57,909 bases of DNA, taken from assembly GCA_021778515.1 (NCBI GenBank), contig JAJYCJ010000008.1, positions 1 to 57,909 of the forward strand, given 5' to 3'. Below, in pieces: positions 2,440-51,840 of the stretch. How positions within the stretch are numbered: position 1 is the stretch's first letter; each line of letters begins with the position of its first letter. The translations under genes and the position numbers were made by a program. The notes under the pieces were generated by a model that made no database searches, was not told where the DNA came from, and was given only the letters and a program-made list of their open reading frames with translations. The stretch comes from Acidobacteriota bacterium (GTDB taxonomy: Bacteria; Acidobacteriota; UBA4820; DSQY01).

Positions 2440-2718
2440 CGTCGCCTCCTACCCGGCCCCCCTTGTCGCATCCTGCGAGACTCCCCCATTCTGGCTCCTC
2501 GCGAGAAGGCGTGCAAGCCGGAACCGAAAGGCCCCCTGCCACAGGAATGGGCGGGGAGGGGATGCCGAGATGTGGGAAAGTCGGGCGCTCGCGGAGATCA
2601 CTCGGGCCGCCGTCCTCATGGCTGGCCAAACGGAACCAGCTCGCGATCGCGGGCGCTGCCTTCCCGAGCGAAGCGGGGGAGGGCACGCTCCGCCGCCGCC
2701 GGCGCAGCCTCGCTGGCC

Positions 2719-4275
2719 TCAGCGGTCGTACGCCTTGAACACCAGCACGTCCCGAGGGTAATCCACGAAGAGCAGGAAATTGTCCAGCACGTCGCGGCCG
2801 ATGAGGCCGTAGCACTGCACCGGGTAGCTCTCCCCGATCTCGGTGACCTGCACCACCGGCATCTGGAGCTGGATCGCCCCCAGGGAGAGGTCCACCCTCT
2901 CCGCCGTGCCGCTCAGGAACATCCCGGAGATGCCCCGTCCGTGCTGGGCCTTGTACTTGCCGCTGTTGACCTTGACGCCCAGCTCGGCGGCGTGCTCCGC
3001 GGCGATGTAGGTGGAGGTGGCCCCCGTGTCCAGGAGGAAGCGCAGATCGCCGCGGTCCAGGATGCGCGTCAGCACCATCGGCATGCCGTTCAGCCAGAGC
3101 GACTTCTGGGGGTAGAGTTTGTCCCCCAGCACCGACGCGGGATCGGTGCCTGAGGGATAGAGCACCAGCTTTCCGTGCCTGCGGTCGTAGAGGAGCGCGT
3201 GGCGGCGGAAGAGGGAGAGCGGCACGATGCCGCCCAGTTCGGACCAGAAGTCGGTGTCCTTGTCCAGCACCATGGCGGGGACGTTCTGGAAGAGCAGTCC
3301 TCCCACCGAAAGGCTCTTGAGCAGGACCCAGTTGGAGCTCACGGCGCCCCTGTAGCCCAGGCCCGCGTATTCCGCCGACGCGATGGGCGAAAGATGCAGC
3401 TCCCTGGCGAGGCGGGCCGTGATGAGCACCACGTTGGCGCCGGAGTCCAGCAGCATCCACTCCTTCTTGCCGCCGTCGGCCACGGCCGGGACCGTGACCC
3501 TGGAGCCCGAGGAGAAGCTCACCGTACTCGACCACTTGGTGTCCTCGGACCAGGCGGGCAGATCCACCCGCTCGGTCTTCTCCTTGAGCGGGATCTCCAG
3601 CGTGCCCCTCTCGATGGGGGCCTCCTCGAAGAGCCTTCCGCCTCCCGCCGCCGCGTAGATCTGCTCCAGCGCCTCCCAGTCGCTCCTTCCCGCGGGATCG
3701 GCCGCCGCGGCCCGCGCCACCAGCTCGCGGCAGCTCTTGGCTTCCGGGGTCAACGAGAGGGCCAGGCGGAACACCGCGGGGGCCGGTTGTTTCAGCTTCT
3801 CCAGCGCCTGCCCGATCAGCTCCCGGGCCTTGGCCTCCTGGCCCTGGGCCAGAAGCGCCTGTGCGCTCCGGGCGTAGGCCTCGGAGGCCCAGCCGTCCTG
3901 GCGACCGTACAGGGCTGACCACATGGCCACGGCCTGCGGCACCATGTCCATCTCGAAGGCGCACTGCCCCGCGAGGTAGCGCAGCTCCGGCTCCTCCGGG
4001 TGCTGGCCCGAGAGGGGCACGACCAAGCGCACGGCCTCCATCGTCCGGCCCAGGCCCATCAGGGCCCTCACCTTCACCACCTGCAGGCGCAGGTCCTGCG
4101 GGTTCTTGGCGAGCGCCCCCTCCGCCTCGCCCAGGGCCTCTGGGTAGGCGCCCCTCTCCAGTGCCCGCCCCGCCGAGACGAGGGCCGGAGGCTCCACGGG
4201 TTTCTTCGGGGCCTCCTGCGACCACGGGACAACGCCACCCAACAGCATCAATGCCAAAGCGACCCGTCCGCCCAT
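2719..4275 (-). CDS. Secreted TPR protein with two retropepsin-like aspartyl protease domains
   Basis: The protein has 518 residues. A short signal peptide (MGGRVALALMLLGGVVPWS) is followed by about 190 residues of helical TPR-like repeats (ALERGAYPEALGEAEGALA). Two pepsin-like half domains come next: the first has LLDSGANVVLI near residue 275 and the second LLDTGATSTYIAA near residue 411, followed by YGLIGRDVLDNFLLFVDY. In this family (gag-asp proteases, clan AA) each domain supplies one D-[ST]-G catalytic loop, so the two could form a pepsin-like bilobed active site in one chain. It is probably periplasmic. The substrate is unknown. Confidence 0.85.
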   Translation of the reverse strand: MGGRVALALMLLGGVVPWSQEAPKKPVEPPALVSAGRALERGAYPEALGEAEGALAKNPQDLRLQVVKVRALMGLGRTMEAVRLVVPLSGQHPEEPELRYLAGQCAFEMDMVPQAVAMWSALYGRQDGWASEAYARSAQALLAQGQEAKARELIGQALEKLKQPAPAVFRLALSLTPEAKSCRELVARAAAADPAGRSDWEALEQIYAAAGGGRLFEEAPIERGTLEIPLKEKTERVDLPAWSEDTKWSSTVSFSSGSRVTVPAVADGGKKEWMLLDSGANVVLITARLARELHLSPIASAEYAGLGYRGAVSSNWVLLKSLSVGGLLFQNVPAMVLDKDTDFWSELGGIVPLSLFRRHALLYDRRHGKLVLYPSGTDPASVLGDKLYPQKSLWLNGMPMVLTRILDRGDLRFLLDTGATSTYIAAEHAAELGVKVNSGKYKAQHGRGISGMFLSGTAERVDLSLGAIQLQMPVVQVTEIGESYPVQCYGLIGRDVLDNFLLFVDYPRDVLVFKAYDR

Positions 4276-4553
4276 GCCAACCCCCTCCCCTCCGCCGACG
4301 GGCCGCGCTCCGCGAACGGGCCCGGCGGCTTCACACTCGCATATCAGTCATTCTATACCTTCCGCGCCCGTGGAGCCACCGCACTTTCCGCTCCAGTCGG
4401 CCCCGAACGAGGTCGCTCTCCGCGTTGGAGAATCGCCGGCGCCACCTGCCAACAAGCTGCCGAAATGAGTCTCGCAGGCCGCACGAAAGGGGCCCGGCGG
4501 ATGGCTCCACCGAGCCCCTTTGTCATTGGCGACGCGGTCGTTCAGCCGGCGCC

Positions 4554-4670
4554 TCAGGGAGGCGAGGGCGCTGTGCAGGTGGGCGGATCGTCGAGGGTGT
4601 TCTGGTCGTAGAGCGCCGAGCTCACCGCGTCGGGCCGGTAGGTGGTACGCAGCAGACAGGTGCGCATCAT
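4554..4670 (-). pseudogene. Possible 3' fragment of a coding gene (38 codons)
   Basis: Reading leftward from 4670, the frame gives MMRTCLLRTTYRPDAVSS and ends in ALYDQNTLDDPPTCTAPSPP before a TGA at 4554-4556. The composition looks like real protein rather than a shadow frame. The start lies exactly where the dispersed repeat at 4668-4739 begins, so this may be the tail of a gene cut off by the repeat, or an independent small gene with a weak ribosome-binding site. I do not recognise the family. Confidence 0.25.
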
Positions 4671-4739
4671 GCCTGTCCTAAGCAGACCGTTCTTCCGGCT
4701 TCGAACCATGGCTGGGTCTCGGCCGCGCCTTTGGCGCGG
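4668..4739 (+). repeat. Dispersed hairpin repeat, family A copy 1
   Basis: The 72 bases match 51769-51840 in inverted orientation at about 59 of 72 positions by eye, with weaker similarity continuing to about 4785. The best-conserved part is a stem-loop GCCGCGCC-ttt-GGCGCGG. Both copies are intergenic. The element does not resemble a tRNA, and no terminal inverted repeat or transposase is visible. Confidence 0.75.
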
Positions 4740-5352
4740 GGCTGGGGGCCTTCGCCGGGCGCGTCCACGCCAGCGTGGCCGCGCTCCGTCCGCAGGCCCT
4801 CAGCCGCCCTTCGGGCGCCAGATTCAGCCTTGCCTGGTGTATGCCGTCCCCCCAACCACCGCGGGTGCGCCGGCGGCGACGGTCCGGCCTGGCCCGGAAG
4901 GCCCGCTTTGAAGAACGGCGCCGGTCCAGGCGTTCTTCAGACGGCTGCTGGCCTTCGGCGCTGCATGGCTTCGCGCCTCAGGCCGCATCCGTAGCTTCGA
5001 ACCCTCCTGCCGCGTCAGGCTTCGGCGCCCGGACGCGCATTCCTCCGCTTCGCTCTGGAAGGCAGACCGCACCAGTGCGCGCTGAAATTGTTTTGGACAG
5101 CCATGGGTGTGCATAGAGAAACTGTCGAAGGTCCCTCACCTCTCTGCACACATTTCACCACGCCCATCCATCACCGGCCCGCCCGCCGACCATCGCGGTA
5201 CCGGCGCACGTCGGCGTGGCCTGGCTTTGGGCTACCGGCGCCCCCGCTTGGCCGCGTGTGGCACAGCCGTTGCTGTTCAGGCGCTGGTCCGCGGGGATGC
5301 GGGCGCGCCGCTTGACAACTTGTGGGAAAGCACTACCAGAGGAGGTTTGCTC

Positions 5353-6633
5353 ATGAAGGAAGGACGCACCTGTTCAATCACCATCGCCACGCTGGCGGTC
5401 GTCGCGGGTTTGGCCCTCGCGCTGTGGCCCCAGAAGACCCAGGCAGTGCCGGCGTTCTCGCGGAAGTACCACGTCCGCTGCTTCACATGCCACACCATCT
5501 ATCCCCGGCTCACTTTGACGGGCTACCTCTTTAAGAGGCTCGGGTTCAGGATGCCCCCACAAGTCGGGCCGGGCCAGCAGGCTCCGCGGGTCCGCGACCT
5601 CGATTCTTCCATTCCGTGGAAGCTGGGCGACACGGCTTCGCTCACCTTCCAAGGCAGCGCCACGCAGGAGAAGACCTCCGCCCCCGGCAGCTCCACCTCG
5701 GCCTCCAGCCTCAATCTGGATGACGCCTCCATCTACCTCGCCGGAACCATGCCCAATTCCGGTTTCTCCTACCTGACCCAGTACTCCATGAGCGACGGGG
5801 ACGCGCCCATGGCGTTCGTCACCTACACCGGGGGGCGCGCCACGAGCAGCTACTTTGCCAGCTTCGGCCGGGGCGAGCTGATAGGCACCGATGGCGTGCG
5901 CGGGGCAGGGTACAGCCTCTTCGATTCGGCGCCCGTACTTTTTTCGTACGGCGACCCCAACAGCGTTTCCTTCGATCAGCAGCCCGTGGGGCTCACCTTC
6001 GGCTACACCTGGGCGCCGTCCGACTTCCACGAGGCACTGGGCCTCACCGTCAAGGTCACCGACGGGCTGAACCCGGACGGGAGCGTCATCACCTCCGGCG
6101 CCACCAAGAACTCGAAGGACGTCTTCGTGATCGGGGACTGGTGGATCAACGCGGGCGGAGGGCTCTCGGTCTTCTACTACCAGGGGCGCAAGGACCAGAT
6201 CCAGAACGCGGGCCTGCCCTCCGAGTTTACTTACTCTCCCAACTTCCGGCGATACGGCGTCTTCGGCGACTACTTCGTGGTGCCGCGCAAGCTCGACCTG
6301 CTGGCGGGTTACGGCGTGGGCCGAGACGACTGGTCGGTGGTTGAAGGCGTCAGCGCGGGCAGTTACACCCAGCGTGCGGGCTACGCCGAGGCGGACTACT
6401 ACCTCACCCAGGGCTTCGCTCTCATGGCGCGCTACGACCGGCTCACCGAGAGTTATCCCGCTGGGGGCGGCGACTCCACCCTGCGCGCCTGGTCCGTGGG
6501 ATGCCAGAAGTGCCTCACCGCCGAAGGAAACACGGCCCTGCGCCTCGCCTACAGCGACCAGCGCGCGGATGGTCCCTTCGACGGCTTCGCCACCGACAAG
6601 CTGGTCAAGCTCGATCTCAAGTTCGGCTGGTAA
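5353..6633 (+). CDS. Fused monoheme cytochrome c-porin, Cyc2-like outer-membrane protein
   Basis: The start is placed at the ATG at 5353, just after a clear ribosome-binding site (gaggaggtttgctc); the ORF-track start at 5107 lacks one. The product has 426 residues. A signal peptide (about 1-31, ending TQAVPA) is followed by a single heme-attachment motif CFTCH near residues 41-45, in the context AVPAFSRKYHVRCFTCHTIY and then LTGYLFKRLGFRMP. This resembles the N-terminus of Cyc2, in which a monoheme plug is fused to an outer-membrane beta-barrel that takes electrons from extracellular iron. Residues about 75-426 are alternating amphipathic strands ending in LVKLDLKFGW, as expected for a barrel with a C-terminal aromatic residue. 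A second Cys pair (CQKC, no His) lies near residue 384. The next gene, 12 nt downstream, is a cytochrome. The role in extracellular electron transfer is inferred. Confidence 0.75.
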   Translation: MKEGRTCSITIATLAVVAGLALALWPQKTQAVPAFSRKYHVRCFTCHTIYPRLTLTGYLFKRLGFRMPPQVGPGQQAPRVRDLDSSIPWKLGDTASLTFQGSATQEKTSAPGSSTSASSLNLDDASIYLAGTMPNSGFSYLTQYSMSDGDAPMAFVTYTGGRATSSYFASFGRGELIGTDGVRGAGYSLFDSAPVLFSYGDPNSVSFDQQPVGLTFGYTWAPSDFHEALGLTVKVTDGLNPDGSVITSGATKNSKDVFVIGDWWINAGGGLSVFYYQGRKDQIQNAGLPSEFTYSPNFRRYGVFGDYFVVPRKLDLLAGYGVGRDDWSVVEGVSAGSYTQRAGYAEADYYLTQGFALMARYDRLTESYPAGGGDSTLRAWSVGCQKCLTAEGNTALRLAYSDQRADGPFDGFATDKLVKLDLKFGW

Positions 6634-30593: not shown

Positions 30594-30942
30594 GAGAGCC
30601 TCCTCAGGAGTGAAGCCGCTCCGGCCCTTCAAACGCCTCGTGCTGGACATAAAGAGGCCATGCCTCCTGAAATCCTGTGAGGCCAGACCCTGCTTGAGCC
30701 TCGCGCACCGGACGAGCTTCACCATGCCACCCCCTCCATCGCGCCCGGGCCGTGGGACCCGGGGCGCCATCTCCCGACCCGAGGATCTCCCCACCAGTCT
30801 CCATCATGCCTGCCCACGGTGGAGCGCTTTGCCGCCTCCGAACCGCGGCGGGACCTGGGCACCCATGGCGCCTTGCGGCCGGCCCCATGGGCGGGCGGCC
30901 AGAGGCGCGAGCCCCTCCTGTTCCCGTTGACCGTCCCCTCGG
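30594..30942. other. Intergenic region upstream of the porin gene
   Basis: About 350 bases between the porin start and the stop of the efflux outer-membrane gene. I see no gene. The 94-residue minus-strand ORF here lacks a ribosome-binding site and has shadow-like composition. It probably contains the porin promoter and the terminator of the efflux operon, but no clear consensus is visible. Confidence 0.5.
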
Positions 30943-49648: not shown

Positions 49649-51616
49649 TCAAGGTCCGATGCCCGTGCCGCGCGCCGGGCGCACTCTCAGGATGTGGGCC
49701 GGCAGCCGCTGGGGGTCCAGCTCCACGAAGTTCCTGGGGCCGTTCCAGGTGTAGCTCTCGCCTCCCAGCAGGTCCTCGACCCGGTAGCTCCCCGCCTCGG
49801 GAAGCCCCAGTGCGGACAGCCGGAGGCCGGTCCAGGCGGACTGGCGGTGGCGGGGATCCAGGTTCACCACCATCAGAAGGACGTTCTCCCCCCGCCGCTT
49901 GCTGTAGGCCAGGAGGTTCGGATTGTCGGTCTCGTGGAAGGTCAGAGGGTCCGCGAAGCGCAGGGCCGCGTTGGCGCGGCGGATGGAGTTCACCCTGGCG
50001 ATGAGTTCGCGCAGGCTCTCGGGGCTCTCCCGGTCCCAGCGGCGGAGCTCGTACTTCTCCGAGTGGAGGTACTCCTCGCTGCCGGGCTCCCTGGGCTCCG
50101 TCACGCAGAGCTCGTAGGGCGGGCCGTAGATGCCGTAGCTCGCCCCCAGGGTGGCGGCGAGGACGAGCCGGACCGCGAAGGCGGGCCGGCCGCCCTCCTG
50201 AAGGTAGGCGTGCAGGATGTCCGGTGTGTTGGCGAAGAGGTTGGGCCGGAGGATGTCCTTCAGCGGCGGGCTCGTCAGCTCCCGGAAATACTCCCGAAGC
50301 TCCCAGGAGCCGGTGCGCCATGTGAAGTAGGTGTAGGACTGGCTGAAGCCCGCCTTGGCCAGCCGGGCCATCACCTTGGGGCGCGTGAAGGCCTCCGAGA
50401 GGTAGATCGTCTCCGGGTGGCTGCGCTTGAGCGAGCCCAGGCACCATTCCCAGAAGGCGAAGGGCTTGGTGTGGGGGTTGTCCACGCGGAAGATGGAGAC
50501 CCCCTGCCCGATCCAGAACTCGAAGATGCTTCGGAGCTCGCGCCAGAGCGAGAGCCGGTCATCGCACTCGAAGTCGAAGGGGACGATGTCCTCGTAGCGT
50601 TTGGGCGGGTTCTCGGCGTACCGGATCGTGCCGTCGGCCCGGTGGCGGAACCACTGCGGGTGCTCCTTCACGTAGGGATGGTCGGGGGAGCACTGGAAGG
50701 CCACGTCCAGCGCCACTTCCAGCTCGTGCCGCCGGGCCTCCGCCACCAGCTCCCGGAACTCCTCGAAGGTGCCCAGCTCGGGGTGGATGGACTTGTGACC
50801 CCCCTCCTCCGAGCCGATGGCCCAGGGGCTGCCCGGGTCGCCGGGGCCGCAGAGCAGGGAGTTGTTGGCGCCCTTGCGGTGCGTGGTGCCGATGGGGTGG
50901 ATGGGCGGCAGGTAGAGGACGTCGAAGCCCATGCCGGCGACGTAGGGGAGCAGGGCGATCACGTCCCTGAATGTGCCGTGCCTGCCCGGCTCGGGCGAGG
51001 CGGAGCGGGGGAACATCTCGTACCAGGCCCCGTACCGGGCCCGCTCCCGATCCACGGCGACGGGAACCTCCAGCGGATAGGTGACGGCGAAGGGCCGGGG
51101 CGCGTGCCTCGCCATGAGGTCCGCCATCTCCGGGGAGGCGGCCGCGGCGAAGCGAGCGCTCTCCTTGCCGTGGTCTTCGGCAGCGGAAGCGGCGGCGCGA
51201 AGTCGCCGGGCCTCGGCGGGCGGGGCATGCCCGGCGGCCTCCTCGATCAGGGCGGCCCCTTCCCGCAGGTCCAGCTCCACGTTCTGGCCCGCCTGGAGCT
51301 TCTTGGCGGTGGCCTCGCGCCAGGTGGCGTAGCGGTCCACCCACGCGGTGAGGGTGAACTCGTAGGGCGCCTCCTCCTCCACGGTGAACTCGGCGGCCCA
51401 GCGGTCGTTCCCGAGGTGCTCCATGGGAAGTTCGCGCCAGCGGCGCTGCCCCTTCCGCCGATGGAGGAGCCTGCAGGCCAGCAGGTCGTGCCCGTCGGCG
51501 AAGATGTCCGCCTCCACGCGCACGCTCTCGCCTGGGGTGCGCTTGACGGGAAATCGCCCGCCGTCCAGCTGGGGGGCCACGGCCGTGATCACCACGCGCT
51601 GACGTCCGTCTTCCAT
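49649..51616 (-). CDS. glgE: Alpha-1,4-glucan:maltose-1-phosphate maltosyltransferase
   Basis: The start is set at 51616 (ggagaggacaggc upstream), giving 655 residues; the longer track version is an in-frame extension. The N-terminal domain (VVITAVAPQLDGGRFPVKRT, EADIFADGHD) is the GlgE dimer region. The GH13_3 catalytic part has AVDRERARYGAWYEMFPRS, VLYLPPIHPIGTTHRKG, the nucleophile in IFRVDNPHTKPFAFWEW (about 377) and the acid in IYLSEAFTRPKVM (about 405). It adds maltose from maltose-1-phosphate to growing alpha-1,4-glucan. It is first in a glgE-treS/mak-malQ/glgB run with gaps of 14 and 6 nt, probably one operon. Confidence 0.94.
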   Translation of the reverse strand: MEDGRQRVVITAVAPQLDGGRFPVKRTPGESVRVEADIFADGHDLLACRLLHRRKGQRRWRELPMEHLGNDRWAAEFTVEEEAPYEFTLTAWVDRYATWREATAKKLQAGQNVELDLREGAALIEEAAGHAPPAEARRLRAAASAAEDHGKESARFAAAASPEMADLMARHAPRPFAVTYPLEVPVAVDRERARYGAWYEMFPRSASPEPGRHGTFRDVIALLPYVAGMGFDVLYLPPIHPIGTTHRKGANNSLLCGPGDPGSPWAIGSEEGGHKSIHPELGTFEEFRELVAEARRHELEVALDVAFQCSPDHPYVKEHPQWFRHRADGTIRYAENPPKRYEDIVPFDFECDDRLSLWRELRSIFEFWIGQGVSIFRVDNPHTKPFAFWEWCLGSLKRSHPETIYLSEAFTRPKVMARLAKAGFSQSYTYFTWRTGSWELREYFRELTSPPLKDILRPNLFANTPDILHAYLQEGGRPAFAVRLVLAATLGASYGIYGPPYELCVTEPREPGSEEYLHSEKYELRRWDRESPESLRELIARVNSIRRANAALRFADPLTFHETDNPNLLAYSKRRGENVLLMVVNLDPRHRQSAWTGLRLSALGLPEAGSYRVEDLLGGESYTWNGPRNFVELDPQRLPAHILRVRPARGTGIGP

Positions 51617-51768
51617 GCCTGTCCTCTCCGTGCCATCCCCCATGGGCCCTAGCCGGACCTTGTTCGAAACGTCTTCATACCATGGGATTATGCCGTGCCC
51701 GAGTCTGCGGGTCCAGTCCGGGCCCGCGGCCAGGCCCGGGTGGCCGCGCTCGGAGAACGCCACCGGCG

Positions 51769-51840
51769 CCGCGCCAAAGGCGCGGCCCGGCCCCGGCCGT
51801 GGTTCAGAGCCAGAAAGACGGCCTGCCTTGGACAGGCATG
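51769..51840 (-). repeat. Dispersed hairpin repeat, family A copy 2
   Basis: This is an inverted copy of 4668-4739, with about 59 of 72 positions matching by eye and weaker similarity to about 51700. Here the stem is perfect: GCCGCGCC-ttt-GGCGCGGC on the minus strand. It lies between the sensor-kinase stop (51871) and the glgE start (51616), where a terminator would be expected. The 254-nt gap holds nothing else I can identify. Confidence 0.75.

Follow-up and report, generated by a model that had tools for sequence, protein, structure and literature searches.

A hairpin repeat of an Acidobacteriota genome is probably the left end of a MITE served by an IS4-type transposase, in a family whose larger copies hold a folded module

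Two intergenic copies of a hairpin-bearing repeat lie in opposite orientation near 4.7 and 51.8 kb of the window, the whole stretch of 57,909 nucleotides analysed here (contig C156 of the 3.34-Mb Acidobacteriota assembly G000), which raises the question of what kind of element they represent. An earlier note, made from the sequence alone, had suggested a REP- or MITE-like element, a terminator or a structured RNA. It had counted 59 identical positions among 72, and this count is exact for 4668-4739 (+) against 51769-51840 (-). The stem, which it had called perfect or near-perfect, has a perfect core at 51768-51786 (-) and one outer mismatch at 4722-4740. With three mismatches allowed, the stem core GCCGCGCC-TTT-GGCGCGGC was found at these two window sites only, against 0.12 sites expected by chance. 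In a BLAST comparison with the family consensus described below, the similarity of both copies far exceeded chance; the copy at 4668 matched across its full length with 77% identity (E = 7e-82), and the 51.8-kb copy gave E = 5e-26.

The repeat is thus real, but the earlier coordinates covered only the first 72 of the 438 bp of an element with imperfect terminal inverted repeats (CATGCCTGTCC.../...GGACAGCCATG; Table 1). Counting copies genome-wide, as the note had proposed, gave 41 matches to a 105-bp query, or about 40 copies, in the window's assembly, so further copies do exist. At least 22 copies were scored in a congener (G001), which has about 30 left ends, and at least four in a sister genus (G004); beyond these two no convincing copy was found among 40 relatives, and plasmid, phage and viral collections contained no match. 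The elements range from 128 to 835 bp, most commonly about 393 bp, and the size variants differ mainly by internal segments; in local alignments the copies stay similar up to about 440 bp, many with internal gaps. The 393-bp consensus was built from 21 copies of 388-395 bp with a mean pairwise identity of 85%, and the right end of the consensus is the inverse of its left end (CATGCCTGTCCAAAA... and ...TTTTGGACAG(C/G)CATG). The delimited copies bear an imperfect inverted repeat resembling CATG(C/G)CTGTCCAAAA at either end. Comparison with IS4 proteins revealed no transposase gene or remnant inside the elements.

Table 1. Features of the MITE family in the window, with examples of the 273-nt module at other loci
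Feature	Position	Strand	Basis or remark
Left target-site duplication GGTGCGCAT	4659..4667		8/9 identical to 5106-5114
Complete MITE, 438-bp variant, including the 72 bp noted earlier	4668..5105	+	consensus BLAST, ends, duplication
Left terminal inverted repeat CATGCCTGTCCTAAG	4668..4682	+	consensus CATGCCTGTCCAAAA, 21 copies of 388-395 bp
Subterminal hairpin GCCGCGCC-TTT-GGCGCGGg	4722..4740	+	sequence conserved, no covariation
Right terminal inverted repeat, CATGGCTGTCCAAAA on the minus strand	5091..5105	-	paired-end analysis
Right target-site duplication GGTGTGCAT	5106..5114		comparison with left flank
Second copy, left-end piece; right part lost or unrecognisable	51705..51840	-	about 82% over 116 bp
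Decayed right-end piece, same MITE family	2617..2700	-	73% over 83 bp, E = 4e-10
Decayed left-end piece, same MITE family	30805..30912	+	68% over 111 bp, E = 3e-9
273-nt module, examples	L097:1683-1958 (-), L044:1809-2082, L200:1042-1314, L249-L273		

No intact right end was found for the 51.8-kb copy. An exact CATGCCTGTCC match lies at 51614-51624, 226 bp from the left end of this copy, and includes the start codon of a GlgE-like gene on the minus strand; it has no target duplication and may be either the lost right end or a chance match.

Paired ends delimit 55 elements shorter than 900 bp in the three genomes. Their 9-bp flanking duplications match at eight or more of nine positions in 35 of the 55 and perfectly in 17, compared with 77 of 20,000 mismatched flank pairs (0.4%) that reach eight of nine or more in the control. 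The base composition of the duplications is symmetrically biased, with A at position 1, T at position 9, few A at position 3 and no T at position 7, and such a two-fold symmetry would be expected from a staggered cut by a DDE enzyme. At one site of the congener (L042) the arrangement is GGCCGTGGT-element-GGCCGTGGT, and the orthologous stretch of the window's assembly (L024, contig C121), with flanks about 95-97% identical to those of the congener, carries a single GGCCGTGGT and no element. This site, filled in one species and empty in the other, demonstrates past mobility of the family. Both species seem to carry an element at other sites, such as L053/L040, L022/L104 and L051/L107. Around the window copy, the whole 2.7-kb stretch 2457-5119, including the gene at 2719-4275 (-), is absent from the congener, and orthology with the latter ends within a few bases of the right duplication; because the entire 2.7 kb on the left is missing there, no empty site for the window copy itself could be demonstrated.

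The inverted ends, the 9-bp duplications, the copy number, the lack of a transposase gene and the filled and empty site together identify the element as a MITE, which bears out the MITE-like reading among the earlier suggestions. The absence of a transposase near the repeat, also remarked on earlier, is explained by the non-autonomous nature of the element. We assign a probability of about 0.86 to the reading in which the hairpin repeat forms the left end of a non-autonomous MITE on which an IS4-type (DUF4372, IS4Sa-like) transposase would act in trans.

In the proposed mechanism, the DDE transposase of an IS4-family element (DUF4372 type, IS4Sa-like) would recognise the MITE ends in trans and would move the MITE into 9-bp staggered targets. 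Two intact IS4-family elements of 1325 bp (L132) and 1387 bp (L133) are present in the same bacterial family. Their ends, CACTGCTGTCCGG and CACACCTGTCCAAGAT / CACTGCTGTCCAAGAT, are flanked by perfect 9-bp duplications and follow the end design of the MITE (ACCTTGAGT in L132, GGTCCAAGT in L133), being similar though not identical to the MITE ends. The encoded proteins score far above the cut-off of NCBIfam NF033592 (IS4 family) and contain DUF4372 and DDE_Tnp_1. Four more Acidobacteriota loci combine the same end design with perfect 9-bp duplications. The IS4Sa insertion sequences are characterised by CA------T ends, repeats of 8-10 bp and a length of 1150-1750 bp (De Palmenaer et al. 2008, PMC2266710 Table 1); the MITE has their CA-starting ends with T at position 9 (CATGCCTGT) and a 9-bp duplication within the range of the subgroup, but the window element measures 438 bp and has no transposase gene. 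The common end design, the 9-bp duplications and the fit to IS4Sa point to an IS4Sa-like helper. It is deduced from relatives because a DUF4372 transposase was found in none of the three MITE-bearing genomes (G000, G001 and G004), nor was a 1-2.5 kb element with exact MITE ends, the autonomous parent, among their paired ends. We infer that the helper is now missing from the window's genome or was not binned with it.

In G006, the ends CACGCCTGTCCAAAATAGC are located at contig ends (L084, L085, L086), and two of the contigs share the adjoining ATGTTAAAT. The assembly was probably interrupted there by a related repeated element with a 9-bp duplication.

Duplications of 9 bp are made by several IS families, and no matching transposase was found in the window's assembly or the congener, which leaves some room for the same non-autonomous element being moved by a different DDE transposase with 9-bp duplications (e.g. 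an IS1-, IS10/IS50- or IS903-like one). This is nonetheless unlikely, as CAnnnCTGTCC ends and a 9-bp duplication are combined in IS4/DUF4372 elements, both within the same bacterial family and in other Acidobacteriota, and the two other DDE_Tnp_1 genes of the window's assembly lack such ends.

About 55 bp separate the hairpin from the left end of the MITE. The hairpin stem is 97.9% paired, and it is the sequence that is conserved rather than the pairing by compensation: a single compensatory cell was counted in 280, a value equalled by 27 of 500 shuffles. A structured RNA at the hairpin was accordingly rejected, and the Rfam 15 covariance models gave no match in the window. The proposed terminator fares no better, since the stem is not followed by a T-run and the only terminator-like site that a scan detected in 4500-5400 lies at 4503, outside the element. 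Rather than forming a module of its own, the hairpin belongs to the MITE as a conserved subterminal palindrome, to which the transposase or a host factor may possibly bind.

A regulatory module that selection maintains at every locus, be it a terminator, a promoter island or an outward start codon, is very unlikely. The outward ends do read GGACAG(G/C)CATG, and the CATGCCTGTCC match at the GlgE-like start codon at 51614 fits such a role; on the other hand, neither a T-run nor a promoter match is present, and at least one insertion differs between the sister genomes. Moreover, the frame of the outward ATG stays open for at least 100 codons at 19 of 63 ends, and another frame does so at 20 of 63. 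Because open frames are not in excess, a general start-codon role of the outward GGACAGGCATG ends was rejected. Most improbable of all are the readings in which a RAYT tyrosine transposase has spread a REP/BIME-type repeat, or in which the repeat is a comparable extragenic palindrome that duplicates no target: REP/REPIN sequences (PMC2817692, PMC3116915) are likewise multi-copy, intergenic, GC-rich palindromes, but REPs measure 20-40 bp, whereas the units found here are 128-835 bp long with terminal inverted repeats and 9-bp target duplications, the palindrome is an internal part of the element and not the repeat unit, and the empty orthologous site also argues against it.

No description of the MITE family or of the 273-nt core treated below was found in the literature (open-licence papers), and the family is apparently undescribed. 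MIC231 elements are non-autonomous cassettes of the IS4 family. The MIC231/IS231 cassettes of Bacillus cereus (cited in PMC2266710) share modular interiors with the MITE, but belong to the IS231 subgroup, whose repeats measure 10-12 bp and whose ends differ, and some carry passenger genes. By their descriptions, QMITE1/2 of Coxiella (PMC5896051) and MITEAba12 (PMC6382973) are also short, non-autonomous elements with inverted ends, many copies and stable folds, and prokaryotic MITEs have direct repeats as well (7-9 bp in QMITE2). Unlike QMITE1/2 and MITEAba12, the Acidobacteriota MITE is GC-rich, has IS4-type ends and reaches 835 bp.

Covariation, which the earlier note had proposed as a check, is lacking in the stem it described but is strong in a different module, present only in larger copies of relatives. 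This 273-nt module, which has inverted ends of its own, is contained in the 756- and 835-bp copies of the congener and in the 663-bp copy of the sister genus. Neither the 393-bp class nor the window copy contains it, and in the window's assembly it survives as pieces only. Homologues outside these MITEs occur at 31 places in G003 and 12 in G007, partial ones counted. Among 20 module copies, double changes affect 37 of 90 pairs, and 176 compensatory cells were counted, where shuffles had 54 (sd 5); the module reaches a covariation score of 0.291, and slid controls do not exceed 0.064. This test is independent because the 20 sequences were gathered by BLAST; a caution is that the inverted end itself makes up the outer stem of the module, and that apparent compensation can arise when palindromes undergo intrastrand correction. 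Rfam gave no convincing match for the module in the relatives.

Of 396 Acidobacteriota genomes, 69, from 37 genera, matched a covariance model of the module at E<=0.001, with at most four candidates scored per genome. The matches examined are palindromic elements of about 270-280 bp with several types of inverted ends, some of them flanked by CTAG, TTAA or TA. Most contain a 23-base core motif at a fixed offset on either arm, with 16-23 matching bases against shuffled maxima of 15-17; in the TCTGTTTTCAAATT type the motif is weak. Each of the 15 elements tested aligns with the module (z 4-20). A structure-blind alignment of 29 phylum-wide sequences has a mean column identity of 65% and double changes in 78 of 86 pairs, a covariation that is not independent, as the model pre-selects such folds and most sequences match on both strands. 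The core consists of a stem, two long arms and a CCCGnAGGG mini-hairpin, and its stretches GAGGAGCGGCAAC and CTCGTCG are conserved.

At L237:1444-2116, L205:772-1317 and L222:1473-1743 (G003, G007 and G005, respectively), the 273-nt module or its core is enclosed by inverted ends of a further type, TAAGGGCCTATCCGTAAATAGG. The interior of the 393-bp consensus (206-310) was considered as a homologue of the phylum-wide element; the resemblance is plausible by eye, and it was rejected at z <2 against shuffles.

The folded core seems to recur across the phylum and to be undescribed. Tentatively, the module may be more than a simple palindrome, namely a selected folded element, either RNA or single-stranded DNA, whose core recurs phylum-wide with different ends and CTAG/TA-type targets. 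If so, more than one transposition system would have taken up what is either a structured passenger or a folded mini-transposon of a new class.

The feature in the window is of an ordinary kind, a MITE, and the surprising part is the phylum-wide folded core, which the window copy does not contain. A MITE family with past mobility aids the annotation and comparison of bacteria that are known here from draft assemblies only. The interiors of MITEs have usually been held to be decayed remnants, whereas the interior module described here keeps its pairing through many compensatory changes. Given its recurrence across the phylum with different transposon ends, one can now test whether the interiors of some MITEs serve a function as folded molecules.
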